Source: Rheinheimera sp. A13L
Lineage (GTDB): Bacteria > Pseudomonadota > Gammaproteobacteria > Enterobacterales > Alteromonadaceae
Direction of reading: 5' to 3'
DNA length: 64,000 nt
Assembly (NCBI RefSeq): GCF_000217935.1
Contig: NZ_AFHI01000012.1
Span: 186,001 to 250,000 of the forward strand
Part shown: piece after piece, positions 12,683 to 53,876 of the stretch
Layout of the letters: the number at the start of each line of letters is the position of its first letter
Numbering within the stretch: position 1 is the stretch's first letter
Position numbers and translations under genes: made by a program
The notes under the pieces: generated by a model
Database searches by the model: none
What the model was told of the DNA's origin: nothing
The model's input: the letters and a program-made list of their open reading frames with translations, nothing else

Positions 12683-12696
12683 TTGCATCTACCTCT

Positions 12697-34352: not shown

Positions 34353-34367
34353 AGGCATAACTTTTGC
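34353..34367 (+). promoter_or_regulatory. Sigma-54 type promoter of flgT
   Basis: AGGCATAACTTTTGC on the plus strand has GG and GC at exact spacing. The predicted start near 34379 lies 24 nt before the ATG at 34403 and just before its AGAGGA site, which supports that start. Confidence 0.75.
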
Positions 34368-34402
34368 TTCTGTCCTGTCAGATACTTTATAGAGGATTAG
34401 TC

Positions 34403-35560: not shown

Positions 35561-35587
35561 GAGTGACTTTACCTAATGAACAAAAGA

Positions 35588-35662
35588 TGGCCGCCCCAAC
35601 AGGAATCGAACCTGTAACTGCCCCTTAGGAGGGGGCCGTTATATCCATTTAACTATGGAGCG
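35588..35662 (-). tRNA. tRNA-Arg (anticodon CCU)
   Basis: The minus strand folds into a standard cloverleaf. Acceptor stem CGCTCCA/TGGGGCG, D-arm GTTA...TAAC, anticodon arm GCCCC-CTCCTAA-GGGGC with CCT in the anticodon position, T-arm ACAGG-TTCGATT-CCTGT, discriminator G and an encoded CCA. It reads AGG codons. Confidence 0.95.
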
Positions 35663-35806
35663 GCTGTAATGAGGATTGATAAGCTATCATAAATTTTAGA
35701 CTTATAACATGTTGTAAATGCTAGATTTTGTTTATTGCACATTTAGTAATCAAAATTATCATAAAGTGGATCTGTAGTCTGGATCAAAAAGAATCAGGAG
35801 AAAAAA

Positions 35807-36679: not shown

Positions 36680-36765
36680 ATAAAGGTGTTGTGGTTTAGC
36701 TTTTGCTGGCTATAAAAGATGTTATGACACCCGATTTTATGCAGGTCTATTAAGGCGGTAGAACC

Positions 36766-37905: not shown

Positions 37906-37908
37906 CGC

Positions 37909-38523
37909 ATGAGTAGCACAGCAGCAAACAACACCACTCCAAACCAGTTTAATCTGGTGGTCTGTGCCTCAGGCGGTGGGGGAAATTTTCAGGCCATCAT
38001 TGATAAGCAAGACAGGTTGGCAGTCACCATCACTAAGCTGATTGTTGACCGGCCCTGTGGTGCTGTTCAAAGAGCGCAGCAACAGGGTATTGCAGTGCAT
38101 CAGTTGAACTATTCCGGCGATTTGGCGCAGCAGCTGTTAAACGCTATTCCTGAAAACACAAATTTAATAGTGCTGGCTGGTTTTATACCAATACTGCCAG
38201 CAGCGGTGTGTAAGCTCTGGCATAAAAAAATAATTAACACTCACCCATCCCTGTTGCCAGGTTATGGTGGCAAAGGCATGTACGGAGTGAAAGTGCAGGA
38301 AGCTGTCATGCAAGCGAAAGAAAAATACGCTGGCTGCACTGTGCACTATGTCGACTCTGGCATTGATACAGGTGAAATCATTCTGCAAAAAGCCATTGAG
38401 GTCGATTACCGGTTAACACCATGGGAGTTAGGCGGACTGGTATTTAAAGAAGAAAACAAACTTCTGGTGGATGCTATTCAATTGTTAAAATTAAACCAAG
38501 CTGCGGAGATGCAATGCAATTAA
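37909..38523 (+). CDS. Formyltransferase family protein (PurN-like), probable sugar N-formyltransferase
   Basis: A 204-residue formyl-tetrahydrofolate-dependent transferase fold. The catalytic Asn/His are in IINTHPSLLPGYGG, and the conserved Asp region is GCTVHYVDSGIDTGEI. These resemble glycinamide formyltransferase PurN, but the gene sits between a sugar aminotransferase and glycan genes, so the acceptor is more likely an amino sugar nucleotide. It overlaps the next gene by 10 bp. The true housekeeping purN would normally be beside purM, which is not here. Confidence 0.8.
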   Translation: MSSTAANNTTPNQFNLVVCASGGGGNFQAIIDKQDRLAVTITKLIVDRPCGAVQRAQQQGIAVHQLNYSGDLAQQLLNAIPENTNLIVLAGFIPILPAAVCKLWHKKIINTHPSLLPGYGGKGMYGVKVQEAVMQAKEKYAGCTVHYVDSGIDTGEIILQKAIEVDYRLTPWELGGLVFKEENKLLVDAIQLLKLNQAAEMQCN

Positions 38524-39488
38524 CATGGGAAAAATTGGGGCTAGTCTTTGATCCTGAGCTGATACCGGAGCGCCCGGACTGGATGGTTAATTTCGCTCAG
38601 GCACCCAATGTCGTTATTTTTGATAGCTTCATACGGGTGTTTTTTTGTTGCCGCCCCAAACCGGACGAAAATAAACAGTTTGTCAGTTATTGTGCTTTTG
38701 TTGATTTGGATAAAACAGATCTGTTTAAAGTGCTGAATATCAGCCAGAAGCCACTGTTAAGCCTTGGCGACCTGGGGACCTTTGATGAGTTTGGTACTTA
38801 TCCAGTGTCCGTTACCGAAGATAGCGGGGAGCTGATTGCCATTTATGGCGGCTGGCAGCGCTGTGAATCTGTACCTTTTAATATTTCATTGGGTTTGGCC
38901 CGAAGTCATGACAAGGGAGTCTCCTTTACCAAACATGGCCCTGGCCCTGTGTTATCGCACTCACCCAATGAACCTTTTATTGTCACGTCTCCAAAACTTC
39001 GTAAATACAATGACACCTGGTATCTGGCCTACACAGCAGGACGAAAATGGATACTGGATGAAGAAGGTCGCCCGGAAATTATTTACAAAATGCGGATGGC
39101 CACCTCAAAAGATTTAGTGAACTGGACCAGACTGGACAGGGATATTATCGATAGTAAGCTGGGCGACGATGAAGCTCAGGCTTGTCCTGATATTTTTTAC
39201 GCTGCTGGTAAATACCATATGTTTTTCTGCTACCGGCAAGGTCTGGATTTTCGCTCGAATAAAAATAATAGCTACCGTATTGGTTATGCCAGCTCTGTTG
39301 ATCTTCAGCAGTGGCACAGAGATGATTCAAAAGTGGATCTGGATGTGTCTGAAACAGGCTGGGATTCAGAGATGGTTGCTTACCCGACAGTGTTCGAACT
39401 GGATGGCACTGTGTATATGCTGTATGCGGGGAATGGCAATGGTAAAACAGGCTTTGGCCTGGCGAAACTGCATGGAGCTTTGGGCTGA
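38514..39488 (+). CDS. Beta-propeller glycosidase-like protein, tandem copy 1
   Basis: A 324-residue protein with repeated propeller-type strands: ISLGLARSHDKGVSFTKHG, IGYASSVDLQQWHRDD and FGLAKLHG, of the kind seen in five-bladed GH43/GH32/GH130-like folds. Conserved acidic positions are visible (GDLGTFDEFGTYP, ETGWDSEMVAYP). There is no signal peptide, so it is probably cytoplasmic. It is clearly homologous to the next gene along its whole length. Its role may be in glycan or nucleotide-sugar processing; the catalytic status is unknown. Confidence 0.7.
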   Translation: MQLTWEKLGLVFDPELIPERPDWMVNFAQAPNVVIFDSFIRVFFCCRPKPDENKQFVSYCAFVDLDKTDLFKVLNISQKPLLSLGDLGTFDEFGTYPVSVTEDSGELIAIYGGWQRCESVPFNISLGLARSHDKGVSFTKHGPGPVLSHSPNEPFIVTSPKLRKYNDTWYLAYTAGRKWILDEEGRPEIIYKMRMATSKDLVNWTRLDRDIIDSKLGDDEAQACPDIFYAAGKYHMFFCYRQGLDFRSNKNNSYRIGYASSVDLQQWHRDDSKVDLDVSETGWDSEMVAYPTVFELDGTVYMLYAGNGNGKTGFGLAKLHGALG

Positions 39489-40444
39489 TGAAATGGCAAA
39501 AACTCGGGAAAATCTTCGACCCAACCACAGTGGTTCTGGCCGATGGCTGCACTGAATTTGCGAAATCCCCTCAGGCTTTGGTATTTGAAGACTTTGTACG
39601 GATTTACTTTTGTGCACAGAAAAAAACGGCCAATGGCAAATACCTGAGTTTTCCTCAGTATGTCGACTTTGACAAAAGCCTGAACAAAATCCTCGCCTTA
39701 TCGGAACAGAGTATCATACAGCCGGGAGAGCTTGGCCATTTTGATGAGCATGGCATTTTCCCTTTCAGCGTAACACGGGATGACAAAAGCATACTTGCTT
39801 ATACTTCTGGCTGGAGCCGTCGTACTTCAGTCTCTGTTGATATGAGCATAGGTCTTGCCCGCAGCACAGATCAGGGTGCCAGCTTTGAGAAATACGGAGC
39901 TGGCGGGCCTGTTATGGCAGCCAGCCATAATGAGCCTATGATGGTCGCAGATGCCTTTGTACTGAAAGTAAACGGCAGCTACCACATGTGGTATATCTTC
40001 GGCAGTCACTGGCAGAAAAAGACCGCTGACGGCGCAGCAGAACGCTTTTATAAAATTGCCTATGCCCATTCCAGCGACGGCATAACATGGCAACGCACAG
40101 GCCAGACTATTATTGACGAAAGAATACCGGATGAATGTCAGGCACTGCCGACTGTTATTTACGCTGCAGGCAAATACCATATGTATTTCTGCTACCGCAG
40201 TGCCTATGATTTCAGGCAAAACAGCAAAAATGCCTACCGACTGGGTTATGCCTGGTCTGAAGATTTAATCCGCTGGACCAGAGACGATAATCTGGCTGGT
40301 ATTGATCTATCTGATTCAGGCTGGGATTCAGAGATGATGTGTTATCCAAATCTGTTTGAATCTGATGGCCAGATTTTTTTGTTATATAACGGCAATGAAT
40401 TTGGCCGCTATGGCTTTGGTCTGGCCCGTTTAACAGAGCTATAA
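39488..40444 (+). CDS. Beta-propeller glycosidase-like protein, tandem copy 2
   Basis: A 318-residue paralogue of the previous protein. It starts KWQKLGKIFDP (copy 1: TWEKLGLVFDP) and keeps GELGHFDEHGIFP, SGWDSEMMCYP and YGFGLARL at equivalent places. Its ATG overlaps the previous stop as TGATG, so expression is coupled and the two may form a heteromeric pair. The divergence is well beyond a recent duplication. Function not known. Confidence 0.7.
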   Translation: MKWQKLGKIFDPTTVVLADGCTEFAKSPQALVFEDFVRIYFCAQKKTANGKYLSFPQYVDFDKSLNKILALSEQSIIQPGELGHFDEHGIFPFSVTRDDKSILAYTSGWSRRTSVSVDMSIGLARSTDQGASFEKYGAGGPVMAASHNEPMMVADAFVLKVNGSYHMWYIFGSHWQKKTADGAAERFYKIAYAHSSDGITWQRTGQTIIDERIPDECQALPTVIYAAGKYHMYFCYRSAYDFRQNSKNAYRLGYAWSEDLIRWTRDDNLAGIDLSDSGWDSEMMCYPNLFESDGQIFLLYNGNEFGRYGFGLARLTEL

Positions 40445-40502
40445 CCCGACTTGAGCTAAGATGCAGCTTAAAACTAACTAACAAGCAGGACAAGGTGTCC
40501 CT

Positions 40503-41243
40503 ATGACAACAGCAAGAGACTTTAACAAAGAAATTATCGACAACTCAGGCCGCTCTTATTTCTATGGCTTTGACTATGACGTGATGCACCCTTATATGAT
40601 CCAGTCGTTTGAGCCTTTTCTGAGAAACGGCAATCTGTTGGAATTAGGCAGTTTTAAAGGTGAACTAACCAAAAGACTGCTGCCCTACTCAGAAGACATT
40701 ACCTGCGTCGAAGCCTCAGATGTGGCCATCAGCGAAGCAAGGCAGAAACTGGGAGATAAAGTAACTTTTGTGAATGCGTTATTTGAGCAGGCCCAGCTAC
40801 CCACACGTTATGACAATATTGTGATGACCCATGTGCTGGAACATCTGGACGATCCGGTCCTGGTGCTCAAACGCATTAACGACGAATGGCTGTCAGACAA
40901 AGGCCGCTTCTTTTTAGTTTGCCCTAATGCCAACGCACCTTCCCGTCAGATTGCGGTAAAAATGGGCCTGATCAGCCACAATGCAGCAGTAACCCCGGCA
41001 GAAGCTGAACACGGTCATCGTTGCACTTACAGCCTGGATACACTGGAGAGGGATGCTGTAGCCGCAGGTTTAAAAGTGGTGCATCGTTCAGGCATCTTCT
41101 TCAAAGCCCTGGCAAACTTTCAGTGGGACAGATTGCTGCAAACCGACATTATTTCACCGGCTTATCTGGATGGCTGCTATAAACTGGGCCAGCAGTATCC
41201 GGATTTATGTTCCAGCATCTTTTTAGTCTGTGAAAAAGGTTAA
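40503..41243 (+). CDS. Class I SAM-dependent methyltransferase
   Basis: A 246-residue protein with SAM motif I LLELGSFKGELTKRLLP near residues 34-50, the acidic VEAS after motif II, and THVLEHLDDPVLVLKRI typical of Methyltransf_11/23 enzymes. It is the last plus-strand gene of the glycan cluster and ends 22 bp from the convergent WbqC-like gene. It probably methylates a sugar or a glycan terminus; the target is unknown. Confidence 0.82.
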   Translation: MTTARDFNKEIIDNSGRSYFYGFDYDVMHPYMIQSFEPFLRNGNLLELGSFKGELTKRLLPYSEDITCVEASDVAISEARQKLGDKVTFVNALFEQAQLPTRYDNIVMTHVLEHLDDPVLVLKRINDEWLSDKGRFFLVCPNANAPSRQIAVKMGLISHNAAVTPAEAEHGHRCTYSLDTLERDAVAAGLKVVHRSGIFFKALANFQWDRLLQTDIISPAYLDGCYKLGQQYPDLCSSIFLVCEKG

Positions 41244-41265
41244 AGCAGCGGCACTGCCGGCTCTG

Positions 41266-41973
41266 TCAATTACGCACCAGGGAATAGTCAGCAAGCATCT
41301 CTTTGAGCTGCTGCTGACTGGTAAACATTATCAGGTCAATGACTGATAAATAAGGTACAAACTCAGCGCCAAATTGCCGGTAGCCTGGCAAATGGGATTG
41401 CAAAAAACAAAGCTCCAGACCAGCGCGCTCAAAAGTAGTTTTGTTGTACAGCTCAAGCCCACCTATTGCATTGATATAGCGCTTTGCCCCCAACGCCTGA
41501 CACAAGGCGATGACTTTTACTTCAGAACGCAGGCTGTGATCAATGGCAATGTCAGAGGAGCGGATGATCGTGCGTTCAATACCAAGGAACTGACACAGCA
41601 GCCGAATGGAGTGTTCGGTAAAATAAAACAGATTTGTCTGTGGGCAGAGAAAACACTGCTCAATCACAGGATAGGCTGTGTCAAAATACGGCGCTTTACG
41701 GTAACTTTGTTTGATCTGAGCCAGTATTTTACTGATGGCCTGCCCTGCGTCATCCGCCAGATAACGTTCCACCACATTCAGATAATCAGAGCCTTGTTTT
41801 AACGGCAGAGTAAAGAGTTTTTTTTCGCCGTTCAGCAAGATGTTGTTGCGGTGAAACCAGCCTTTTTTTGTAAACTGAATATTGTCGTAAAGCACAAAAA
41901 CGTCACTGGCAACAAGGAGTTGCCAGTAACCCAGATAGGGCAAAAAATAGGGCTGCATAATAGCTACATTCAT
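41266..41973 (-). CDS. WbqC-like family protein
   Basis: A 235-residue complete WbqC-like protein (MNVAIMQPYFLPYLGYWQLL, then DVFVLYDNIQFTKKGWFHRN). It is homologous to the truncated protein at 1-588. It lies 35 bp after the HMW1C-like glycosyltransferase gene in the same direction and so is probably the last gene of the pilus/glycosyltransferase run. WbqC proteins accompany glycan synthesis genes; the reaction is not established. Confidence 0.85.
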   Translation of the reverse strand: MNVAIMQPYFLPYLGYWQLLVASDVFVLYDNIQFTKKGWFHRNNILLNGEKKLFTLPLKQGSDYLNVVERYLADDAGQAISKILAQIKQSYRKAPYFDTAYPVIEQCFLCPQTNLFYFTEHSIRLLCQFLGIERTIIRSSDIAIDHSLRSEVKVIALCQALGAKRYINAIGGLELYNKTTFERAGLELCFLQSHLPGYRQFGAEFVPYLSVIDLIMFTSQQQLKEMLADYSLVRN

Positions 41974-42008
41974 TGTTTTGCCTTTTTAAAGACCCTATTC
42001 CACAAGGC

Positions 42009-43901
42009 TTATATAATCCGGTCGTTATCCCAGGTAATGAGTTTATGTTTTGTGGATTTATACATATTCAGCTTGTGATACACAGCAGCAATAAACTCAC
42101 CAAATTCAGAGGGCTGGTCTTTTTCAATACTCAGCATGGCTTTGATGTCTGCAGATTTAATACATTGAGTCTGAGCTGCATAATACGCATCATCATTCAC
42201 CAGAGCTGTAACCTTATTCAGGTAGCTTTCGACTGAGTCGCACATAAAATGCTGATCAAGTCCAAAGGACTGTAACACCAGATAGTCTGTATAGCTGCAG
42301 AACTCATGACCTTTCAGTGCCACCACGGGTAATCCAAGCAACATGGAATCTACAGTGCTGTTGGTGTTACCAAATGGAAAAGGCGCCAGACTGATATGAC
42401 ATTGACCCAGTGTTTTAAGAAACTCAGGGTATGGCATCTGTGCATAGACTGTGGCATCAGGAAACTGTCTGAGCAGCATGCTTTTCAGGCCGTCGTTAAA
42501 GAGTCCATCACCGGCAGGAAAAAAATGATAGTTAACCCTGGATCCGAGTTTTGTTTTCACATCCTTGAGCAACTGAACAAACACACTACTTAATTTCATG
42601 GCGGCACAGTTAATAGCTATATGTTTACGGCCATCTGAAATTTTTGCTGAACTCAGGCTCTCAGACGCCAATTCACTGTGTTCAATCGCCGTATAACGAT
42701 AGTTTTTATTTTGTAGTATGTTTTCCGAAGCCAAAGCGCTTGCACCAGGCAAATCCGGACCGTAGTAAATAAAATCTATGTTGTCAGAAAAACTACTTTC
42801 AGGATGGCCGCAACTCATGACCTGCATAGCGGCTAAACGCAGGTTCGCCAAATAGATAGTCCAATGCGACATTCCAAGGCTGGGATAATAAATAATATCG
42901 GGATTAATACTGGTAATAGTTTGAATAATAGCTTTTAAATCAGTGACATCATCCACTATCAGATGGCGTGGAAACACAGTTTTGGATACGTCATCAAGCA
43001 ATGTCTGCTCGGCAAGAGAATACACTTCAAAATGCTGCTGCAACGAAAAATAAAGGGGCAAATAGCAGCGGAACATTGCATGGTTGCGCCCTGCCCGTTC
43101 ATGGATCACTAATAGTCTGGGTATGTGACGTATTTCCGACGCTTTCTTTTTGGGAACAAACAGGCCATTTGAATGCAGAAAGTTACCAATCATCTTATTG
43201 ATATTCTTTTTAATCTCCCTTTTGTTTGTACTGGGAGAATAAGAACAATACATCCATGCATTTACAACACTGTTCATAAAGCTTTGATTTGGATTTACTC
43301 TTAACAGCAGTTTGGATTTCTCAAACAGGGTCTCTCTGTTTTTTTCCCCCTGACTGGTTAACACCACACCAGTATTGAGCCACCCCATCATCAACACGGC
43401 AAAATAAGCTTCGTGAAGTTGAGTCGCAAGAGCCAGGTAGGCGGGATCCACATCATCAATATGGACAAAAACAAAATATAACAACAACTTATGTTGAGGT
43501 ATGACAAAAGAGCCTGTTTCAGTTCTTTCCGTCAGATAGGTTCTCAGGTGGGCATAACCTCTGTAACCACTGTTATAAAAAACACTGGCGATTACTTCTT
43601 TATAGCGCGCTAAATCAGAGAGGTCTTCAACGGACAAAGCTTGTTCTTCGCAAGAGGCCCACAACGACAACAAAGTTGCCATTCTGGTAAAAAGTTCATC
43701 CGCAAAGTAGTTTCGTACAGAGGTATCATTTGAATACAAGGTTCTGTTGTGAAAGCTGTCGTAAAATGCCTGCAACAAAGCAAGAACCTCCTTTAACGAA
43801 AGTTCTCCCCTGGAATGAATTTCCATTTCCAGTTTCGCCAGCATTTTATGAAACTCAATAATCTGGCTTTTGCTTTGTTGCTCTGCTGCATTGTCTGTCA
43901 T
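42009..43901 (-). CDS. HMW1C-like (GT41 family) protein glycosyltransferase
   Basis: A 630-residue soluble protein resembling HMW1C/ApNGT cytoplasmic N-glycosyltransferases. An all-helical N-terminal part (to about 250) precedes a GT-B core. Family landmarks: ARNH-like HERAGRNHAMFRCY near 268-280, GMSHWTIYLANLRLA at about 343-357, CGHPESSFSDNIDF at 364-377, a lysine in AAMKLS (436), and LAPFPFGNTNSTVDSM at 505-520. HMW1C-type enzymes attach glucose to Asn in N-X-S/T of adhesins and flagellin-like proteins. It starts 7 bp after the SPOR lipoprotein gene of the pilus operon. The minor pilin has three N-X-S/T sequons (NAS, NGS, NLS); the major pilin has none. Confidence 0.8.
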   Translation of the reverse strand: MTDNAAEQQSKSQIIEFHKMLAKLEMEIHSRGELSLKEVLALLQAFYDSFHNRTLYSNDTSVRNYFADELFTRMATLLSLWASCEEQALSVEDLSDLARYKEVIASVFYNSGYRGYAHLRTYLTERTETGSFVIPQHKLLLYFVFVHIDDVDPAYLALATQLHEAYFAVLMMGWLNTGVVLTSQGEKNRETLFEKSKLLLRVNPNQSFMNSVVNAWMYCSYSPSTNKREIKKNINKMIGNFLHSNGLFVPKKKASEIRHIPRLLVIHERAGRNHAMFRCYLPLYFSLQQHFEVYSLAEQTLLDDVSKTVFPRHLIVDDVTDLKAIIQTITSINPDIIYYPSLGMSHWTIYLANLRLAAMQVMSCGHPESSFSDNIDFIYYGPDLPGASALASENILQNKNYRYTAIEHSELASESLSSAKISDGRKHIAINCAAMKLSSVFVQLLKDVKTKLGSRVNYHFFPAGDGLFNDGLKSMLLRQFPDATVYAQMPYPEFLKTLGQCHISLAPFPFGNTNSTVDSMLLGLPVVALKGHEFCSYTDYLVLQSFGLDQHFMCDSVESYLNKVTALVNDDAYYAAQTQCIKSADIKAMLSIEKDQPSEFGEFIAAVYHKLNMYKSTKHKLITWDNDRII

Positions 43902-43908
43902 AGCCAGC

Positions 43909-44634
43909 TTATCCTTTATTCACTATGCAGCTGGCACCGCTGCTCATCAGCAGTTTACAGCTTTGTTTTGCCTCATTGTAACTCTCAAAGCGGCCCGCCT
44001 TTACCCTGTAGTAAGTACGGTTAGCAACCAAAACCTGCTCTGAATGCAGATCTAACGACCCTAATACCTCTGGATGGCGTTTTTTCAGTTGCGTCCAGGT
44101 GGGGTCAACTGCTTCTTCTTTTGTTACAGATGCCAACTGTAAGCTAAAAGAAGTATTTTCGGCTTTGGATCCGGCACCAACCTGAGACAAAACGGACATG
44201 TTTTGTTCGACAGAGGTGGGGGCAGAAGTCTGACTCAGAGTTGCTGTCAGAATTTCGTCATTGATTTGTTTTTCTGCTGGCTGAACTGCCCGTGTTTGAA
44301 CCGGCACTGGCGTAGCAAGTTTTTTCTCTTCGAAGTGAACTGGGGTCATCACCTGAGTTTGAACATTATGCCCATTGTCAGCTGTTGCCAGCTGAGCCGT
44401 TGGTTCATTTTCTGTAATAGTTTCCAGAGTTGCCAGCAGGCCCTTTAACTCACCTTCAATAGCCACAAGCCGCTGAACACCGGGCTTTAGTTTTCTCCAT
44501 TCAGCCAGTTCAGCTTCCATTTCTTTATTATGTGAGGTTGCAACTGGCTCTGGTTGGCTGGCACAGCCAGCGATCAGAGAACTCAACAATACCGCTATAC
44601 TGCAAAGCAAAGACTTATTCATTGTAATTACCAT
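43909..44634 (-). CDS. SPOR-domain lipoprotein of the pilus operon
   Basis: About 241 residues. I place the start at ATG 44634, which has GGGAG 8 nt upstream; ATG 44622 is the alternative. The lipoprotein signal is clear (lipobox LIAGC). Near the mature N-terminus is a short coiled coil with WRKLKPGVQRLVAIEGEL, a long Thr/Gln-rich linker follows, and the C-terminus is a SPOR-like domain (QLKKRHPEVLGSLDL, YYRVKAGRFESYNEAKQSC). SPOR domains bind peptidoglycan lacking stem peptides. It lies 49 bp after the usher gene, whose C-terminus has a similar segment. Confidence 0.78.
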   Translation of the reverse strand: MVITMNKSLLCSIAVLLSSLIAGCASQPEPVATSHNKEMEAELAEWRKLKPGVQRLVAIEGELKGLLATLETITENEPTAQLATADNGHNVQTQVMTPVHFEEKKLATPVPVQTRAVQPAEKQINDEILTATLSQTSAPTSVEQNMSVLSQVGAGSKAENTSFSLQLASVTKEEAVDPTWTQLKKRHPEVLGSLDLHSEQVLVANRTYYRVKAGRFESYNEAKQSCKLLMSSGASCIVNKG

Positions 44635-44683
44635 AAAAACTTCTCCCTCTTGTTTGCGTGGTCTGCCGAAATAAGCCCTGATG

Positions 44684-47600
44684 CTACAGCTTGGTTTCAA
44701 ACTGATTTACAGCACATGCCAGCCTTCGGCCTTTAATTCGGTTACATACTTCTTCTGCCAGATGCTGTTCTTTGAAAAAGCCTGCCCGAAGCACGTATTT
44801 GCCGGACTCTTCATCCTGCAGGTAGAATGGTCTTAACTTAGCAACATTCATACCACTTCGAACCAACAAGCCCCAGTAGGCTTTTAGTACAGTTAATGAG
44901 CCAAAGCTGCCCATATCAGCGGAATACCCACCCGCAGCTTCTTTTTGCTGCAACATGATGTCAGTACCGTTGATCACATCGCCCCCTCTGACGGCCAGGT
45001 AAACCGGATCGGACAAACGCAAATTACGACGTTTAGTAAAACTCTTGTCGATCATAACTTTGTATTGACCTGGCACTACATCAACAAACAAATAATAACC
45101 GTCATATTCTGATTGGGCTGTATCAACCACTTTGCCATTGCTATCAATCAATTGAATAACTGCATAGGCAGCGGGTTCCATATCCCCGTCCACAGAGCCT
45201 GAATACAGAGTACCTTCCAACTCACCTGTCGAGGTCACAGCAAAATCGATATGCTCGATATAGCCTTTACGTCCGGTCAGAGCCACACCAGGGATCAATG
45301 TTTTCATCGTTGGATCTTCAAAGCTGCCTCTGTCGACCACAATGTCTGTTTTTTGATTGGCAGCCAAACCTGTGAGTACCGCAATACCTTTTTCATTGGT
45401 GACCACATCTCTGCTCCCTCCCTGTAACGACATTATTTTTGCATTTTTAATAGGAGTTTCACCTTCGTCCATCACACCATTGAGGTTCTTATCTTCATAA
45501 ACACGTGCGCTGACAGCACCAGCCTGAGCGACGTTGCTGCTGGAAGAGAAATAACCTGACTCCTGACCATAACCAAAACCGAAACGAGCGTTCAGACCTC
45601 CTGACCAACCATTTAAATTGTTGTAACTGGTGGTGGCTGATAAATAAACATTATCCAGACGCCAGTTCAATCCGAGGCTGGCTGAGGTTTGATCTGTCAG
45701 GGTATAACGGAAAATACTAAAGTTTGAGGTCAGATCCGGTGAAAATGGATAACTTAGACTGACACCATAAGACGTGAACTCCGAATCAGGTTTCAGGTTG
45801 TAGTTCGCAAAAAAACGGGTGAAGACTGAGTTAAAATTCTTCCTGTATTGAAAACCACCGGAGGTTACGTTGGGCAGATCAACCTCCCCTGTTAACTCTT
45901 GTTCCTGCTGCTGCTCTAAACGTTCCAGCAACTGTTGGGCGTAAGCCGCCTGATCAAAAAAGTCAGAGATAACAGGCGAAGGCTGCAGGCTAGTCACTTC
46001 TGTTTGTTTCCTCCATTCCAGCGTATTGCCAAAAGACCCTATTTTGGTATTTACGCCCAGAGAATTACGGAGAATTTCAGTAGTACCTGAAAAATCCTTA
46101 TCACGCCGCCACTCATTCTGATAACTCAGTGGCATATCTGAACGACCAAATAACCGACCAGCCATACTGGCAACCAGAGAATCAGAGGCCTGATTCTGGT
46201 TTTCTATTCTGTCCCCTATTGGGTCGTTGTTCTGATAACCCAAACTCACGGCATTGCCAAGGACCTGAGTCCGCAAGCTATGAGAGCTGGTTCGCAGAGA
46301 ATCTTTTACTTCGCCCAAGCTGCTGCTTAACAAAGCAGAACCAAAGATATTCAGGTTTAAACCCAGATCGTAACTCAACAGCTCCTCACCCACCTCTGGT
46401 TTGAATGAGCCCACAGCAGTGCTTAAGCTTAACCAGTCAAACAAACCATAACCGGATACCACATTTGCCTGGATCCCTTGATCAGCCTCATCAGCACCCA
46501 AATTATCTTCTTCCAGCGCAAACACCGATTTGTTTGCTTCCACCACTGAAAATTGATAGTTAAACTGCCCCTGCCCAACGCTGTTACTGTCGACATTAAA
46601 GACTTCTGTTTTAGTTTCAACCTGGCCCTGAGGTCCATAAAATACTAATTCGAAGTTGTTCTCACCGAAGTCCAGATTAATCTCATTAAATTCGTAGCGA
46701 CCATTATTGATGCCAAACTGTTGGCCAATTAAGATACCGTTCCGGTACACTTCTACATCCCAGCCATCTGGTACATCTCCAGTCAAATCAACCTGACGTC
46801 CGTCGACAGAACTGACCAGAGGTGTATTACTAAATCTCAGACCTCGCCCCAAATTCCGGCTGGCGCCCCTGATACTTCCGACAGGCAAGATATCTCCAAA
46901 CTCGAATTCAGTGGCTTTAAGTGGTCCTAACAAATTGTTTTTATCGGATTCACGAGAGAAGGTCAGGCGTGCACTACTGAGCAGATCATCATTGTTACCT
47001 GATAAATAGTACCGGCTGGTTAAATAAGCTAAGTCATGTGACCCTACGACTGAGTGGGTACTGGTCGTTTTAGACCCTCTGTGACTGGCGGAGATCTGTG
47101 CGTCAAATAACGGCTGTGAAAAGGCTTTATAGCCTGTTTCACGATAGGGCATCACAGAGGTGTTGTTATAGGAGAGATTTGTAACTTCCCTGCCACGTCT
47201 GGCTAATCTGAGTTCAACCGGAAGTTGTCTGCTGGTGGTTAACGTCAGTTTTAGTCTCGACTCGTCAATCACATACTTAAAACCAAACCATTCGGCAATA
47301 GCATTTAGATCAATGTAAATATCATCAGATTCAACAGAATAACTTTGCTCTGTTAAAGTCCATTGCTGACCACTGAGCGATACCTGCAGGCTGTTATCTT
47401 CGCCGACAGACATACTGAATTTATTGCTTTCGTTGTACAACCAGCCATTAGCACGTTTTAAATCAGAGGAGATTTCAATGGGCAACTCTAATAACTGAAT
47501 CAGAGTGGCAAAACCAACTGTAGCAGAAGTTTTCGTTTTAAAGGCAAATACATCAGCCAGGGCTGCAACGTCATTTTTTGACGCTATTTCCAGACCCAGA

Positions 47601-48016
47601 ATAAGTTCCTCGCCCTCAGCAAACCTGCTGCCTTCGACCAAAGCGCCAGAAAATTCGTTATCTTGATAGTAATCAGCGCTGTCAGAATTTTGACTATTAT
47701 CGAAATTATCAACTCCATCCGCAGAACTGCTTGCAGTCATCTGGCCTGACTGTGAATTGGCTTCAGAATTAATGGGTTGACTTACTAATTTTGCAGAATT
47801 TAGTGTTTTGTCGTCTTTTTGTGTAGCTGCAGTGTTTTGTTCGGCTGTTTTATACTTTTTGATCAATCGTTGCAACGCCTGACGGAATTGCGGGTCCTGT
47901 AAGGCCGCTTTCCCATCAGTAGTCTGAGCAACAGAGGCGGGATGAATAGAAAGGCAGGCCACAGCAACAACCAAGGACGACTTCTGACAGAACGTATCTT
48001 TTGGCCTGAATTTCAT
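44684..48016 (-). CDS. Outer-membrane usher of a chaperone-usher pilus, with C-terminal SPOR-like domain
   Basis: A 1110-residue protein with a signal peptide (about 1-30), a disordered Gln/Ser/Asp-rich stretch (about 50-130), then usher regions: the N-terminal domain, a long beta-barrel with strand repeats, plug-type GWDVEVYRNGILIGQQ and FELVFYGPQGQVET near 430-490. After the barrel, carboxypeptidase-regulatory/SdrD-like domains (RVYEDKNLNGVMDEGETP, then EYDGYYLFVDVVPGQYKVMI) follow. The last 70 residues (LLVRSGMNVAKLRPFYL, YVLRAGFFKEQHLAEEVCN) look like a SPOR domain, which is not usual for ushers. The usher secretes and assembles the subunits handed over by the chaperone. It resembles alternative-type ushers more than FimD/PapC. 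Confidence 0.82.
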   Translation of the reverse strand: MKFRPKDTFCQKSSLVVAVACLSIHPASVAQTTDGKAALQDPQFRQALQRLIKKYKTAEQNTAATQKDDKTLNSAKLVSQPINSEANSQSGQMTASSSADGVDNFDNSQNSDSADYYQDNEFSGALVEGSRFAEGEELILGLEIASKNDVAALADVFAFKTKTSATVGFATLIQLLELPIEISSDLKRANGWLYNESNKFSMSVGEDNSLQVSLSGQQWTLTEQSYSVESDDIYIDLNAIAEWFGFKYVIDESRLKLTLTTSRQLPVELRLARRGREVTNLSYNNTSVMPYRETGYKAFSQPLFDAQISASHRGSKTTSTHSVVGSHDLAYLTSRYYLSGNNDDLLSSARLTFSRESDKNNLLGPLKATEFEFGDILPVGSIRGASRNLGRGLRFSNTPLVSSVDGRQVDLTGDVPDGWDVEVYRNGILIGQQFGINNGRYEFNEINLDFGENNFELVFYGPQGQVETKTEVFNVDSNSVGQGQFNYQFSVVEANKSVFALEEDNLGADEADQGIQANVVSGYGLFDWLSLSTAVGSFKPEVGEELLSYDLGLNLNIFGSALLSSSLGEVKDSLRTSSHSLRTQVLGNAVSLGYQNNDPIGDRIENQNQASDSLVASMAGRLFGRSDMPLSYQNEWRRDKDFSGTTEILRNSLGVNTKIGSFGNTLEWRKQTEVTSLQPSPVISDFFDQAAYAQQLLERLEQQQEQELTGEVDLPNVTSGGFQYRKNFNSVFTRFFANYNLKPDSEFTSYGVSLSYPFSPDLTSNFSIFRYTLTDQTSASLGLNWRLDNVYLSATTSYNNLNGWSGGLNARFGFGYGQESGYFSSSSNVAQAGAVSARVYEDKNLNGVMDEGETPIKNAKIMSLQGGSRDVVTNEKGIAVLTGLAANQKTDIVVDRGSFEDPTMKTLIPGVALTGRKGYIEHIDFAVTSTGELEGTLYSGSVDGDMEPAAYAVIQLIDSNGKVVDTAQSEYDGYYLFVDVVPGQYKVMIDKSFTKRRNLRLSDPVYLAVRGGDVINGTDIMLQQKEAAGGYSADMGSFGSLTVLKAYWGLLVRSGMNVAKLRPFYLQDEESGKYVLRAGFFKEQHLAEEVCNRIKGRRLACAVNQFETKL

Positions 48017-48027
48017 AGATATCCTCG

Positions 48028-48864
48028 CTAGTTATTCATTTTTATAGCGCTCCTGTCTACCTGTACTGAAGTATCGAAAAAGGTCTGACCCTGAAAGTCT
48101 CTCATACCTTTGTACACGATCCGGAGCTTGCCATTGGTAGGTGCAAAATCTGCGCCAACCCATGCCAAAGTCGTAAAGGTCTTATTTAATTCAGGCCAAA
48201 AGGTAAAAGCTGAGGTTTTTGCTATCAAACGTTCTTTGCCGCCCGCTGGTGTCCAATAGGCTTCCATATCACCAAAAGTGGAGTATTTTCCTGAACGACT
48301 GACATTTACAACCACGCTGCTTTTGCCCGGAACTGCAGCGTCATAAATAATAGAAGCACTGTTAAAGCTGATGTTGCTATTACTTTCCCCATTTTGCACT
48401 ACAACAGGTATCACAAAACTGGTAATCAAATTTAAGCTCATAGTCAAACCTGCAGTTTGCTCATCAGGTGCTCTCAGTGATGCCGGTGGAGGCAGAGCCT
48501 TAAAAATCAGGTGAGAGCGGTATTCACCTTCAGCAAGACGGGCTGGTTTGCGTAAACTTAATTTGATGGTCTGACGCTCACCAGGTCTTAATGTCACCTG
48601 ACGGGGCGTAAAACGAACCATAGAGCTTGCCGTAGGGAAGTTTTTCAGCGCATCCCCTTTTAAATCTGTGTAGCCGCCCCCTTGTTTAGCTAGCTTTTCC
48701 CGCCACTCCAGACGGTAAGTATTAGTGGTTTTAGAATCATTAAGTAACGTGACTTCGGTACTGCGCTCACCCGGATTAAACTGAATACGTATAGGGTGAA
48801 TCACTAAATTGGCTTCAACCCAAAAACTCATTAGTGCAATAATAACAAGGACTATTTTGCCCAT
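48028..48864 (-). CDS. Periplasmic pilus assembly chaperone (PapD-like)
   Basis: A 278-residue PapD-like protein with a signal peptide (IVLVIIALMSFWVEA) and two Ig-like domains. The chaperone signature is visible in FTPRQVTLRPGERQTIKLSL and the following GEYRSHLIFKALPP. It should bind DUF4402-type subunits by donor-strand complementation in the periplasm. It is 11 bp upstream of the usher gene and 18 bp after the minor subunit gene. Confidence 0.9.
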   Translation of the reverse strand: MGKIVLVIIALMSFWVEANLVIHPIRIQFNPGERSTEVTLLNDSKTTNTYRLEWREKLAKQGGGYTDLKGDALKNFPTASSMVRFTPRQVTLRPGERQTIKLSLRKPARLAEGEYRSHLIFKALPPPASLRAPDEQTAGLTMSLNLITSFVIPVVVQNGESNSNISFNSASIIYDAAVPGKSSVVVNVSRSGKYSTFGDMEAYWTPAGGKERLIAKTSAFTFWPELNKTFTTLAWVGADFAPTNGKLRIVYKGMRDFQGQTFFDTSVQVDRSAIKMNN

Positions 48865-48882
48865 TTCTGTGCTCCACTTTTA

Positions 48883-49353
48883 TTAATATGAAAACTCGAT
48901 TTCAAGGTAAATGTTATAAACCGCTTCATTGTAGTAAACACCACCCAAGCCAGAGGTTGCCAAAGTCCCGCCTATAATAAGAGTTGCCTGTCCCGCCAGA
49001 TCTGTTTTCACTGACGCGGGCATATCTAAAGCTGTAATGGTGAACTGCTCTGTGCCGCCATACCCCATAGCAGAACTGACCGGAGTATTGGCTGACAAAT
49101 TCATAGTGGTATAAATAGGAAAATTACTAAGTTGCAGTATGGCTGGTTCACCAGACTGCACTACCAAAATTTTGTTGGTGCTTTGTTGTGACCCGTTACG
49201 CCGCACTGTTGTTGTGCTGACAGAAGCATTAGAGGTGATTGCTATTTTGCCAAAGCTAAGTTGTTGATTAACTGTTATATCGCCATATGCAGGCCATGAA
49301 TAAAAACTGAAAAAGACAACAAAAATTAATGCAGCTAAGTTGTAATTTGACAT
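48883..49353 (-). CDS. Minor pilus subunit, DUF4402-like
   Basis: About 156 residues from the ATG at 49353 (the frame is open to a TTG at 49365, but the ATG follows a GGTGGA site and starts a clean signal peptide ending WPAYGD). The mature part is beta-rich with ITVNQQLSFGKIAI, matching the start of DUF4402 pilin domains, and ends in IYLEIEFSY, a plausible donor strand. It has NAS, NGS and NLS sequons and no cysteine. It may form the tip or an anchor of the pilus. A terminator-like hairpin separates it from the major subunit gene. Confidence 0.75.
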   Translation of the reverse strand: MSNYNLAALIFVVFFSFYSWPAYGDITVNQQLSFGKIAITSNASVSTTTVRRNGSQQSTNKILVVQSGEPAILQLSNFPIYTTMNLSANTPVSSAMGYGGTEQFTITALDMPASVKTDLAGQATLIIGGTLATSGLGGVYYNEAVYNIYLEIEFSY

Positions 49354-49367
49354 AAGGTCCACCAAAG

Positions 49368-49397
49368 AAAAAGGAGCCTAATCATAAGCTCCTTTTT
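49368..49397 (-). terminator. Attenuating terminator between major and minor pilin genes
   Basis: A 10-bp stem AAAAAGGAGC/GCTCCTTTTT with a 10-nt loop, starting 15 bp after the major pilin stop. On the minus strand it ends in a U run. It sits inside the operon and so probably reduces expression of the downstream genes relative to the major pilin. Confidence 0.8.
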
Positions 49398-49412
49398 ATT
49401 TCAAACCAAAGC

Positions 49413-50036
49413 TTATTGGTAGGCAACTTCTACATCAATGTTACCAGTGTAAGCGATGTTATTTTCATAGTTTTGACCAGCAAAAGAGTCATCTGTATGC
49501 AAAGTCGCGCCTAACTGGAACACAGCACCACCGGTACCATCTACCTGAATAGTAGTAGTCACAGCGCCTGGAGTACCACTTGTTTTCCATGCAGTGAAAT
49601 CACGCATAAAGAAAGAAGCTGCGCCAGGGGCTAAAGGAGCAGTTAATTCAACTGTTGTTGGTAAAGTTACGTCTAAAGTAGTGAAGGCAGCAACACCAGC
49701 AATAGTGAAAGTTGGGCGCTCTAAAGTGCCACCGATCGACTGAACTGCTGCGTTACCAGCACCAGTACAGAAGCCTGTAGTAGCAGCGCCACCAGTTGCA
49801 GCAATAGCAGGAGCAGCAGGACCAGCACTTAAAGTAACATAGGCGCAGTTGTTTGCAGAGTTATCTGCTACAGCGCGTAAAGTACCGAAGTTTAAAGTAC
49901 CGGCAGAAGTGAAATCGATTGAGTTGTCTACAGTAACAGAAGCTGTTACTGATGCTATCTCAGCCATTGCCCCAACTGAGGTCATGGTAGCAACGGCCAG
50001 CACGGCCGCTTGTGTAATTTGATTGCGTTTCTTCAT
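49413..50036 (-). CDS. Major pilus subunit, DUF4402-like
   Basis: About 207 residues from the ATG at 50036. The open frame reaches 50117, but the predicted sigma-28 start is near 50112, and AGGA is about 9-10 nt before this ATG. The signal peptide (KKRNQITQAAVLAVATMTSVGAMA) is followed by a Ala/Thr/Gly-rich beta protein with VDNSIDFTSAGTLNFGTLRA, the typical DUF4402 start, two cysteines (NNCAY, GFCTG) and a C-terminal strand IDVEVAYQ. It has no N-X-S/T sequon. The terminator-like hairpin after it suggests that it is made in excess. Confidence 0.82.
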   Translation of the reverse strand: MKKRNQITQAAVLAVATMTSVGAMAEIASVTASVTVDNSIDFTSAGTLNFGTLRAVADNSANNCAYVTLSAGPAAPAIAATGGAATTGFCTGAGNAAVQSIGGTLERPTFTIAGVAAFTTLDVTLPTTVELTAPLAPGAASFFMRDFTAWKTSGTPGAVTTTIQVDGTGGAVFQLGATLHTDDSFAGQNYENNIAYTGNIDVEVAYQ

Positions 50037-50118
50037 AATCATCTTTCCTATATTGATCAAATAGTTACAATGAACCCGCTCAGATAACATTTGATGTTTC
50101 ACACTAAGCGTATTCATG

Positions 50119-50145
50119 TATCGACCGAACTTATCAAAACTTTAT
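50119..50145 (-). promoter_or_regulatory. Sigma-28-like promoter of the pilus operon
   Basis: On the minus strand TAAAGTTT matches the −35 consensus at all eight positions. The −10 is GTCGATAC after exactly N15 from TAAA, one base different from the GCCGATAC of the flagellin promoters here. The predicted start near 50112 gives a 76-nt leader, similar to the flagellin genes. Confidence 0.72.
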
Positions 50146-50478
50146 ACAATTTTTTGTTTTATTTGTAATTTTTTCATTATTTCATTATTTGCACAAAACA
50201 AAATAAAAAAGTACCGTAAAATTAGGCTTAAACGATGTAAAACAGGGCCTGTAAAACATTAGAAAAATTTAAATTACTGAGTGAAAACTTCATTTCCAAT
50301 CTGAACAAAGTGCAAAAAACGGCACAAACTGAATAAGAAAATGGTCATATAGCTGAAGCAAAGAACTGCGGTTTTAGCACCAGAATTTTGCAAAATCATT
50401 CAACAAAATAGACATAGTTCAAAAGATTGTAAACCTAGTATAGCCCCATATTAATTTTTAGCCTCTTCTCCTGCCCCG
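50146..50478. other. AT-rich intergenic region upstream of the pilus promoter
   Basis: A 333-bp stretch with long A/T runs between 50146 and 50215 directly upstream of the sigma-28-like site. No gene, no clear terminator for the FlgO-family operon and no repeat are visible. The A/T tract could act as an UP element or nucleoid-protein site (inference). Confidence 0.5.
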
Positions 50479-51906
50479 TCAAAGTTGCTGCAGTACTAAG
50501 GCTGGGATCAAAGTGCTGGCCGATGCAATGACCACATTATCTCTGGTGGAAACCACCCGGCTATGGATCTGTAAGCCCCGGCGGGTTGGCACCATAGTGC
50601 CGGTCAACACATAGTCCATACCCTGTGAATCACGCAGTTTTCTGGTATTACGTGACAAAGATAAATCTCCGGTCGGCCCTACGGTAATTTCACGTGTCAG
50701 TTTGTATTCAATAACCCTGGCGCCATAAGCAGGCAATACAGTACTGAGTTCTTCCGCTAATTGATTTCCTACCGCACTGGTTTTTTCTAACTGCTCGTCA
50801 AAAAAAACAAAACTGGCCACACCTATTTTGTTGCCGGCCAACTGCTGATTTCCAGCAAGTTTAAATGCCAGTTGAGACACATAATCACTTAAAGATTTGC
50901 GGCTCATATGAAATTGTGGCGCCATTGCATACTGCTGTAAATCTGCGCCAGCTGCTGCCAGTTCAGAAGGTAAAGTAAGGCGCTTAAAGGTTTTTACCTG
51001 CAAACCCGGAATAGGTTGGCCTGCCACAGCTTCACTGTCCAGTTGAGATACTGGAGTAGTGCTTGTCGCTGGTGCTGCTTCGGCATAGGGTGTAGTCATT
51101 GCAAACCAGCTTGGGTCACGAGCTTTAGCCGGGCCGGAATTTGCTGGCGATGAAGTTTCTGAGTCTGTGCAATTGCAATCTGCTGAAGTCTGGGTATAAG
51201 AACTCTGTGTCTGAATGCTGGTGGTGCTGCCACCATCCGGACTCTGAGCGGTCAGATCAGCACTCGGAGTTGAAGCCATCTCAGATCCTGAGTTTTCTGT
51301 ATTTTGCACTGCTGAAGGTCCAAATGACTGCTGTGCAGAACCAGACTGAGCGAAGCTTTGGTGCCCGGTCAGCTCCTGTCGGTTTGCTGCAACATCAGAG
51401 ACTACAGTACTTAAATCAACCAGAAGCGTATTCAACTCTTCCTGCGTACTGACCAACGACTGTAATGCCTGTAAACTTTGTTCTCTTTTTTCAGCAGTAA
51501 GCTCGTCCTGACCTAAATATTGGCTACGTGAAGGTTCATCCGCTAACTGGGACATGTCAGCCAAAGCCTGTACCAAAAATTCAAGATCAGCTTCATTACT
51601 GACAAGACGTTCCAATGCAGGTTTTTGCTGTTCCCATTCAATTTTCAAACTTTCCAGTTGCTGCTCTAATGCTCTGACCTGATTTTCAGCCTGAGCCAGT
51701 TCAGGTGACTTGACTTCATCAGACACTGCATCCGTATTGCTCAGGTTCTCTGTCGAAGCGACCGGGTCAGAATCTGTTGATCCTGACCCCATTAAAGCAC
51801 AGCCCTGTAATAAGGAAATCAGCAACAGCGAAGCGAAAGCGCTACGGAAAATACACCTGTTATTTACGGAGTTTTTAGTGATTGATTTCATATTCATAGG
51901 TTCCAT
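50479..51906 (-). CDS. FlgO-family lipoprotein, long form with coiled coil
   Basis: 475 residues. The lipoprotein signal has lipobox LLQGC. Residues about 70-175 are a coiled coil with EWEQQKPALERLVSNEADL, followed by a Ser/Gln/Thr-rich linker (about 180-290). The C-terminal FlgO domain (about 325-475) has MSRKSLSDYVSQLAFKLA, VASFVFFDEQ, PTGDLSLSRNTRKL and ASASTLIP. FlgO is an outer-membrane protein needed for flagellar stability in Vibrio. It is last in a four-gene run. The precise start is uncertain: ATGs at 51906, 51897 and 51891. Confidence 0.8.
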   Translation of the reverse strand: MEPMNMKSITKNSVNNRCIFRSAFASLLLISLLQGCALMGSGSTDSDPVASTENLSNTDAVSDEVKSPELAQAENQVRALEQQLESLKIEWEQQKPALERLVSNEADLEFLVQALADMSQLADEPSRSQYLGQDELTAEKREQSLQALQSLVSTQEELNTLLVDLSTVVSDVAANRQELTGHQSFAQSGSAQQSFGPSAVQNTENSGSEMASTPSADLTAQSPDGGSTTSIQTQSSYTQTSADCNCTDSETSSPANSGPAKARDPSWFAMTTPYAEAAPATSTTPVSQLDSEAVAGQPIPGLQVKTFKRLTLPSELAAAGADLQQYAMAPQFHMSRKSLSDYVSQLAFKLAGNQQLAGNKIGVASFVFFDEQLEKTSAVGNQLAEELSTVLPAYGARVIEYKLTREITVGPTGDLSLSRNTRKLRDSQGMDYVLTGTMVPTRRGLQIHSRVVSTRDNVVIASASTLIPALVLQQL

Positions 51907-51916
51907 TTAACACAGG

Positions 51917-52351
51917 TTAATTACCGGGAGCTGCAGTTAAGGTGTTCAACTCAAACATCAAACGGGAAAGCTCTGATTTCAGTGTTTGCTGATTGGCGGC
52001 CATCACCTGTAAATAATCCACTGTGACTTCTTTAGTCTGGCCGGCTGCATCACCGCTCAATTGCGTTTGCTGTTGCCTGATATGCATTAAGCGGATCAAT
52101 TGCTCTAAATCCGCATCATTGTTAATCAATTTCTGCAACTGAGCCCTCTGCATATGCAGCTTATGGTGTGTTTCCAGTAAGCGTTTTTTCAACACAGCGA
52201 CTTTTTCAACCTGAGTTAACTCAGCTTCAACTTTCTCAGGTTCGCTGGACAGCGTCGAACAACCCGGCAACAAACTCAATACGACCAAAGCAGCTGCGCC
52301 ATACAGCACAGAAGAGCGCCATAATGAATCGGTGTGTTGACGGATAGCCAT
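51917..52351 (-). CDS. Small coiled-coil lipoprotein of the FlgO-family operon
   Basis: A 144-residue lipoprotein (lipobox LLPGC) whose mature part is a predicted coiled coil: KLHMQRAQLQKLINNDADL, then LIRLMHIRQQQTQ. This block aligns with coiled-coil segments of the 475-residue FlgO-family protein next to it and of the SPOR lipoprotein in the pilus operon. There is no FlgO domain. I do not recognise the family. The start is 1 bp after the previous stop, so it belongs to the same transcript. Confidence 0.7.
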   Translation of the reverse strand: MAIRQHTDSLWRSSVLYGAAALVVLSLLPGCSTLSSEPEKVEAELTQVEKVAVLKKRLLETHHKLHMQRAQLQKLINNDADLEQLIRLMHIRQQQTQLSGDAAGQTKEVTVDYLQVMAANQQTLKSELSRLMFELNTLTAAPGN

Positions 52352-52352
52352 G

Positions 52353-53093
52353 TTATTGCACTCCAGCCGCTTTTAACTGCAACAATGGCGCACTATGAGT
52401 GCCCTTCAGGCTCTGAACAACCTGTTGTGGAATAAAAGCCTGAGCCGATGCCAGTACTTTTTTGTCATTTACATTCACCATTCTGGCATTCACTATCACG
52501 CCGCCATGGTGACGTACTAAGGTACCGCCCAGCACCACACTAATAGGGTATTGTTGAGTCAGTTCAAGGAAATCACGACTGAAGGTAAAATCGCCTGTTG
52601 GCGTCACCCGGATATAATCCGTGGTTTTAAAATCTGTCACGGCCATACCAAACTGAGTGGCCTCGTGCATAAAAGCTTCAGACAGCTGGTTGCCAAGCAA
52701 ATCGCCTTGCTGGTAATCACCATCCAGATAAACAAAGCTGGTCACCCCAACGCTGAAGGTCGTACTTAACACCTCCAGGTTAGCCGCTAAATCATGCATC
52801 AGGCTTTGTACATAGTGATTCACTGTCACCGAAGTTTCTGCCTTGTAACCAGGTACTGCCATGCCCGCCATACGGGCATTTTGCATAGCTGCACTGTCGT
52901 AACCACCCACATACAAAGGTGCATAAGACTGATTTTTTTTGAGCCTCGGAGCATGACCCTGATTTAACTCAACCTGATTAGCCGTTGAAGGCTTGCCTTC
53001 TGAATCCAGCTGGATCAGAGGAGTACAACCAAAGTTCAGGCTCAAAGTGGCGAGGCTGGTGAGTAGTAAAATATAACGATTTGGTGTATTCAT
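52353..53093 (-). CDS. FlgO-family outer-membrane protein
   Basis: A 246-residue protein with a signal peptide that may end at a lipid-modified Cys (LNFGC). The FlgO domain covers about 85-235: NHYVQSLMHDLAANLE, VTSFVYLDGDYQQGDLLGNQLSEA, PTGDFTFSRDFLEL, ASAQAFIP. It is the closest in its domain to the C-terminus of the 475-residue protein, sharing PTGD-FS-R and the final A-S-A-x-x-x-I-P. It lies 3 bp after the preceding FlgO-like gene. Confidence 0.85.
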   Translation of the reverse strand: MNTPNRYILLLTSLATLSLNFGCTPLIQLDSEGKPSTANQVELNQGHAPRLKKNQSYAPLYVGGYDSAAMQNARMAGMAVPGYKAETSVTVNHYVQSLMHDLAANLEVLSTTFSVGVTSFVYLDGDYQQGDLLGNQLSEAFMHEATQFGMAVTDFKTTDYIRVTPTGDFTFSRDFLELTQQYPISVVLGGTLVRHHGGVIVNARMVNVNDKKVLASAQAFIPQQVVQSLKGTHSAPLLQLKAAGVQ

Positions 53094-53096
53094 CCG

Positions 53097-53693
53097 TTAC
53101 GACTCCGAATTGCGATACAACTTATTATGACGCAACTGCAACTGTTCGTTTGGCCATAACACATCTACAGGAATAACACTGGAAGCTGCAGCTAACACTT
53201 GCTGGCTTTTCAGGTCGATTAATTTGGCATTGACAGTGATATGTACCTCACCCTCAGTCAGGGTGCCTGTGATCAAATAACGTGCCTGTTGGTTTTGCGC
53301 CAAATGGCTTAAATTCCGTCCTAATGAGTTTTCATAACCTGTATGTACTAAAACCGCATCATTGAGGCGTAATTCGCTTACCTGGTAGCCCAACTGAGTG
53401 GCCACAGTCTGCATACTTTCCTGCAACTGCAAAGCTGCGTTATAGCTGGAATTGCGGCTGGTATCAGGCGCCATCAATTGCACATCAGCAAAAGTGGTCA
53501 CAGCTATAGCACCGGATTCCAAAGGTTGTAATTGATGAAAAAGCTGATCAGCAAGGCGTTCGGTATAAAACAATAAAGGAGGATGCTGTGCTGCTTTTGA
53601 AAGCTGTACAGGCTCGGCAATATCTTGCCCTTGTGGCAAAGAACTGCAGCTGCATAACAGCAGAACTGTGATGACTAACCCGAATATTCGCAC
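53097..53693 (-). CDS. FlgO-family lipoprotein, first gene of the operon
   Basis: 198 residues from a GTG start with a GGGGG site upstream. The lipoprotein signal has lipobox LCSC. The FlgO domain follows (LLFYTERLADQLFHQL, IAVTTFADVQL, YLITGTLTEGEVHITVNAKLID, AAASSVIP). It is the first of four closely spaced minus-strand genes and lies 49 bp downstream of a sigma-54 type promoter, which supports a flagellar link even though the flgP/flgT locus is 20 kb away. Confidence 0.85.
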   Translation of the reverse strand: MRIFGLVITVLLLCSCSSLPQGQDIAEPVQLSKAAQHPPLLFYTERLADQLFHQLQPLESGAIAVTTFADVQLMAPDTSRNSSYNAALQLQESMQTVATQLGYQVSELRLNDAVLVHTGYENSLGRNLSHLAQNQQARYLITGTLTEGEVHITVNAKLIDLKSQQVLAAASSVIPVDVLWPNEQLQLRHNKLYRNSES

Positions 53694-53741
53694 TGTAGCC
53701 CCCGGCGTTGGTGTCGCTTGTTTATCTCTGTCTGATACACA

Positions 53742-53756
53742 GCAAAATTAATGCCA
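53742..53756 (-). promoter_or_regulatory. Sigma-54 type promoter of the FlgO-family operon
   Basis: TGGCATTAATTTTGC on the minus strand has −24 TGGC and −12 TTGC at exact spacing and differs from the flgF promoter in only two positions. The predicted start near 53730 gives a 37-nt leader. Confidence 0.78.
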
Positions 53757-53812
53757 GAAAATTTTGACGGTTTACCTGATCCAGGCGTTCGCCAGATCAC
53801 ACGGCGCATGTG

Positions 53813-53872
53813 GACGGGAGTGGGCTAATACCGCGGTACATATAGACGGGAGGGGGCAAGCCCCTCCGCTAC
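53813..53872 (+). repeat. Degenerate REP-type repeat pair
   Basis: Two units begin with GACGGGAG and end in GTAC or CTAC: 53813-53839 (degenerate) and 53845-53872 (with the palindrome GGGGGCAAGCCCC). Read on the minus strand, the second has a GTAG head followed by a palindrome, as in RAYT-associated REP sequences and as in the REP pair at 60572. They lie just after the thyA stop. Confidence 0.7.
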
Positions 53873-53876
53873 AGAT

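Follow-up and report, generated by a model that had tools for sequence, protein, structure and literature searches.

Chaperone–usher pili are usually presented as a programme opposed to that of flagella. Under FliA and FlgM, the late flagellar genes, flagellin among them, stay off until the hook-basal body is finished and the cell has exported FlgM. A literature search, with most subscription papers outside its reach, found no description of a FliA-type promoter on a chaperone–usher operon, and the accessible parts of PMC5864184, PMC13188923 and PMC6687942 describe no FliA-driven operon of this kind. In Pseudomonas fragi, as reported in PMC13188923, the fim and flagellar genes are not cross-regulated, a result that runs the other way. 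Here, we analysed a 64,000-nucleotide (nt) stretch of Rheinheimera sp. A13L (contig NZ_AFHI01000012.1, positions 186,001 to 250,000; hereafter the window). Judged from its sequence, a divergent chaperone–usher pilus operon on the minus strand of this window is very probably part of the late (class 3) flagellar regulon.

The operon is preceded by a FliA-type promoter, TAAAGTTT-N11-GTCGATAC, at 50119–50145 (minus strand), identified by direct reading, matrix score and conservation in relatives. The sequence from 50145 to 50119 reads TAAAGTTT-TGATAAGTTCG-GTCGATAC, as an initial annotation of this DNA had stated. Two matches to TAAAGTTT-N11-GNCGATA lie in the window, and none of 100 shuffles contains one. 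A genome-wide search for TAAA-N15-GNCGATA gave 43 matches versus 29 for a reversed control, so that the loose pattern alone is not specific; therefore, a matrix was built from 19 distinct late flagellar sites. These came from 17 flagellin loci of related genomes (30 were fetched, five without a recognisable start were left out, and 17 of the remaining 25 had a site) and from four sites in the window, one of them preceding a 136-amino-acid gene at 12278–12688; the pilin site was kept out of training. With its TAAA ... GCCGATAA-like pair at the fixed spacing, the pilin site scores 23.7 of a possible 26.7. The window holds nine sites scoring at least 15, versus 0.12 expected per shuffled window, and four scoring at least 23, versus 0.0 (100 shuffles). 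Seven of the nine precede late flagellar genes, namely four flagellins, the 136-amino-acid gene, a flgK-like gene and a flgM-like gene (the last three named from our own reading rather than by family search). Of the other two, one falls within the flgK-like gene and one is that of the pilin. All nine share an identical spacing, and the −10 of the pilin site is a single base off the commonest form and matches some flagellin promoters of the order. The site inside the flgK-like gene (16.9, at 20437, minus strand) stands 379 nt before a flgL-like gene. Elsewhere in the genome, a GTCGATA site (18.8, L091 4691, plus strand) precedes a 336-amino-acid gene, and strong FliA-like sites are also found before a 255-amino-acid gene (L094) and a 215-amino-acid gene (L095).

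Conservation in relatives carrying the operon, which the initial annotation had named as a means of refutation, speaks for the site: it is present in 21 of 23 operon loci, in a sixth genus genome and in all seven operons of a second usher clade. Relatives were collected with the usher as bait, which was found in 5 of 22 genus genomes and 33 of 394 order genomes (some weakly), and six named loci were added via the chaperone. Twenty-three loci have a pilin start; within 250 nt upstream of it, the top site scores at least 14 in 21 of them and at least 16 in 20. Scores of 14 were reached by 0.04% of 4,600 shuffled upstream regions and scores of 16 by none. The sixth genus genome (L102), broken at a contig end, retains the pilin start and a site scoring identically, 23.7. 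In four loci the pilin has moved behind the chaperone; in L051, L052 and L060 the site has moved too and occupies the gap ahead of the pilin, the fourth locus being L129. In Pseudoalteromonas xiamenensis, an independent case, a 13.3 site lies in the 82-nt gap before a pilin-like gene and is the sole site of at least 11 in 20.7 kb. Strong FliA gene matches were also obtained for 32 of the 33 usher-bearing genomes versus 273 of the 361 without the usher; in the one usher genome lacking such a match (G130), the usher match is itself weak.

The second clade comprises seven far-diverged operons (L109, L110, L111, L113 and L121–L123), each with a site of 16.2–22.2 before its first pilin. Its ushers are 1116–1227 amino acids long, and since their matches end at positions 886–911 of the 998-position usher profile, no SPOR-like tail is seen; no lipoprotein with the motif described below was found either. 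Thirteen other order stretches (L112, L114–L120 and L124–L128) have no site at recognised operon genes; of these, L126, in which no pilin was recognised, falls in the tailed clade. A class-level search matched 31 of 274 genomes, of which only ten besides the window's own have long usher matches, the rest matching repeat domains only; in these other orders, the operon genes of nine of ten stretches lack a site (best score 9.8) and the tenth, L135, has no recognised operon gene. Mapped onto a tree of 50 ushers, the site requires four changes, namely two gains or retentions and two losses, with site states set by hand, one row left open and L120 and L119 on long branches. Five ushers were left out of the tree (L057 as near-identical, L140 as in pieces, and L124, L127 and L128 as very weak).

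The operon also adjoins genes of the FlgO family. Upstream on the minus strand lie flgO3 (50479–51906), a 144-amino-acid lipoprotein gene (51917–52351), flgO2 (52353–53093) and flgO1 (53097–53693), and the three FlgO proteins match PF17680 at 101.9 to 145.8 bits (cut-off 22.6). FlgO-family genes occur in 22 of 58 stretches, all 22 of which have the site. Within the genus, flgO3 and flgT flank the pilus cassette directly in L035 and L038, while flgT falls outside the stretch in L036 and L037; in the window, glycan genes follow the cassette before flgT. Where the pilus is missing, flgO3 faces flgT directly in eight of nine stretches, the ninth (L100) showing no flgT. The flgO3 reading frame encodes 439–532 amino acids in the six pilus genomes of the genus versus 239–332 in the 16 pilus-free ones (Fisher p 1.3e-5, uncorrected for descent); in seven of the latter, two of them very fragmented, absence was judged from the usher and flgO3 searches only. 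The additional part, an N-terminal extension of about residues 1–200 before the FlgO domain, carries the motif KPxLxRLVxxExDL, which is shared by the 144-amino-acid lipoprotein. A profile of the motif (seven seeds) matches lipoproteins or FlgO3 in 27 of 58 stretches, including the tailed-usher loci except L049, and none of the nine pilus-free stretches. An independent-pairs test of the FliA site against FlgO linkage yielded four pairs, too few to reach significance.

The assembly genes belong to a divergent system. The 278-amino-acid PapD-like periplasmic chaperone (48028–48864, minus strand) matches PapD_N at 0.0011, below the Pfam cut-off, and 19 of its 21 homologues match at E ≤ 0.01 (best 4.2e-9); its profile gave four weak rows against PDB, two of them CsuC. 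The 1110-amino-acid usher (44684–48016, minus strand) has no match to Pfam Usher PF00577 in any of 22 homologues at E ≤ 0.1. Sequence searches of PDB gave nothing with the single usher and only unrelated domain matches with the profile, so that a fold comparison was needed; the predicted barrel and later domains align with FimD/PapC. On the basis of this model, the usher system is a divergent member of the chaperone–usher fold outside the Pfam Usher sequence family, and the earlier label of chaperone–usher pilus stands at the level of fold and not of that family. To the earlier description our analysis adds three features: a SPOR-like tail on the usher, the linkage to FlgO genes and the extreme degree to which the cassette has diverged. 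The C-terminal SPOR-like tail (residues 1028–1103) scores 19.7 bits against PF05036 (cut-off 21), four of 22 homologues match at E ≤ 0.1 (best 2.1e-7), and its model has the order strand-helix-strand-strand-helix-strand with one extra short helix. The next gene (43909–44700, minus strand) encodes a SPOR-domain lipoprotein (37.9 bits, same cut-off) that also carries the KPxLxRLVxxExDL motif.

The pilus proteins of four genus genomes are only 28–40% identical to those of the window, versus mostly 79–100% for flanking genes (flgO3 51–91%), and the −10 and a leader block are nearly unchanged across the genus despite this divergence. The cassette looks, from these comparisons, like an exchange of old alleles at a fixed place. 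Besides this divergence between the window (cassette at 41266–50145) and L035–L038, the cassette shows present/absent variation within the genus.

The promoter is expected to start transcription near 50112, where FliA-RNA polymerase would begin a transcript giving pilin, chaperone and usher together with flagellin, after hook-basal body completion and FlgM export. The −10 ends 81 nt ahead of the ATG at 50036, implying a 5' leader of about 76 nt (50037–50112, minus strand); the corrected start at 50036 agrees with the upstream AGGAAAG and the signal peptide, and an alternative in-frame ATG at 50117 overlaps the promoter. The leader contains a 26-nt block, GAGCGGGTTCATTGTAACTATTTGAT (50054–50081, minus strand), which is exact in the window, L035–L037 and L102 and one base off in L038, and whose core is unique in the window's genome; the block is possibly a post-transcriptional signal. 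Of 14 pairs proposed for a leader structure, only one has changes on both sides and no structure is claimed, and Rfam has no match within 41000–54000. Between the major pilin and the next gene, a terminator-like hairpin with a 10-bp stem and a 10-nt loop was read directly (49368–49397, minus strand; missing from the hairpin scan list, the scan having allowed loops of 3–8), which may keep pilin messenger RNA above that of the assembly proteins.

That relatives keep the switch despite very different pilus proteins suggests that swimming and the pilus are meant to go together. How closely the two are joined can be read in more than one way. SPOR domains in known cases bind septal peptidoglycan, and since both the usher and the lipoprotein have SPOR-like domains, the usher could sit at the new pole, the site of the polar flagellum. 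The motif that the FlgO3 extension shares with the pilus lipoproteins likewise points to contact with the flagellum's FlgO layer in the outer membrane. On these grounds we tentatively consider that the pilus might be a built-in companion of the polar flagellum: FliA would set its timing, SPOR domains would bring it to the new pole and the motif would tie it to the FlgO layer, and the exchange of very divergent cassettes beneath a single conserved promoter and leader would diversify it, as for a surface structure attacked by phages or used in recognition. An even chance is given to a simpler relation, in which FliA drives the operon and the pilus shares only timing with the flagellum, for example for attachment of newly motile cells. 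This would account for the seven FliA-positive loci in whose stretches no FlgO gene was seen (L039, L040, L042, L049, L051, L052 and L060) and for the second clade, with neither SPOR-like tail nor motif lipoprotein seen; the FlgO linkage in 22 loci, and a FlgO3 extension in exactly the pilus-bearing genus genomes, are harder to explain by timing alone.

The nature of the fibre presents a further alternative. The major pilin-like protein (207 amino acids, 49413–50036, minus strand) and the minor one (48883–49365, minus strand; the ATG at 49353 is the likelier start) are DUF4402-like, with 12 of 19 and 14 of 19 homologues matching DUF4402. As these two single-domain subunits are the only ones recognised and no two-domain tip adhesin is seen among the operon genes, the product could be a thread or coat, for example covering the flagellated pole. 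However, adhesins can lie elsewhere or be polyadhesive subunits, and the subunit models are closest to CfaB, FimG, the PapG pilin domain and Csu, mostly pilins of ordinary chaperone–usher fibres, though the matches are weak; a thread or coat is considered unlikely.

Several observations weigh against assigning the operon to the flagellar regulon. Many of the rows are close kin (L056–L058; L047/L048), so that 21 of 23 overstates their independence. The operon is present without the site in L044 and L046, of one genus, the site is degenerate in L129 (the pilin of L050; 11.6) and weak in L141 (13.3), and L053 and L126, of the same usher clade, have no site, though no pilin was recognised there. 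Eight of the 25 flagellins themselves lack such a site within 350 nt, and the pilin −10 has GTC rather than GCC, though GTC also occurs in five of the 19 training sites. The seven loci without a FlgO gene count on the same side. A rival reading, in which the site arose by chance or is a relic and transcription of the operon depends on an unseen sigma-70 promoter and on regulators of its own, is highly improbable. The leader region is A+T rich, there are several sigma-70-like matches beyond it on the upstream side (50482–50405) and L044 and L046 manage without the site, but such matches are not above expectation (11 versus 15.7 in shuffles), and a relic would not be expected to be kept 36–150 nt before the pilin in two usher clades with far-diverged proteins. 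Membership of the late flagellar regulon remains our preferred reading. As a separate observation, L044 and L046 also have no FlgO genes nearby, resembling a natural loss of coupling.

The initial annotation had drawn the operon as 41266–50145, which holds for the pilus genes and not for the last two, which are accessory. An NGT/HMW1C-like glycosyltransferase gene (42009–43901, minus strand), 7 nt after the lipoprotein gene, is present in three of five genus loci read; at 171.6 bits against the HMW1C/NGT equivalog NF049992 (cut-off 1000), its product is a relative only and is not filed as NGT. The WbqC-family gene (41266–41973, minus strand) has no tblastn match in any of 26 other loci. The pilin was rejected as the obvious target of the NGT-like enzyme because it has no N-X-S/T site; the four flagellins have 5–6 each. 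A Maf-type flagellin glycosyltransferase is encoded at 7190–10033 (minus strand), and flgT is separated from the pilus operon by a block of sugar genes (34364–41243, plus strand).

A conserved class of pili made as late flagellar products would alter our picture of how marine and freshwater Gammaproteobacteria switch between swimming and attachment, and the FlgO-family proteins would gain a possible partner. The class is easily overlooked, as the genes are not labelled usher or pilin in the RefSeq record of Pseudoalteromonas xiamenensis, where the operon appears as 'carboxypeptidase regulatory-like', 'DUF4402', 'hypothetical' and 'SPOR'.

Compared with the FimD/PapC-type systems of type 1 and P pili, the usher barrel and later domains align and both have a PapD-like chaperone, whereas the system described here has no Pfam Usher match and adds a SPOR-like usher tail, a SPOR lipoprotein, a FliA-type promoter and FlgO neighbours. 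The subunit models come nearest to those of CFA/I and Csu. The pilin site shares its −35 and spacing with FliA (sigma 28) class 3 flagellar promoters, but its target is a chaperone–usher operon. Finally, as in the FlgO/FlgP/FlgT system of Vibrio-like polar flagella, the window encodes FlgO (PF17680) and FlgT domains far above cut-off, whereas its flgO3 has an extra N-terminal part, present in the pilus-bearing genomes of the genus only.
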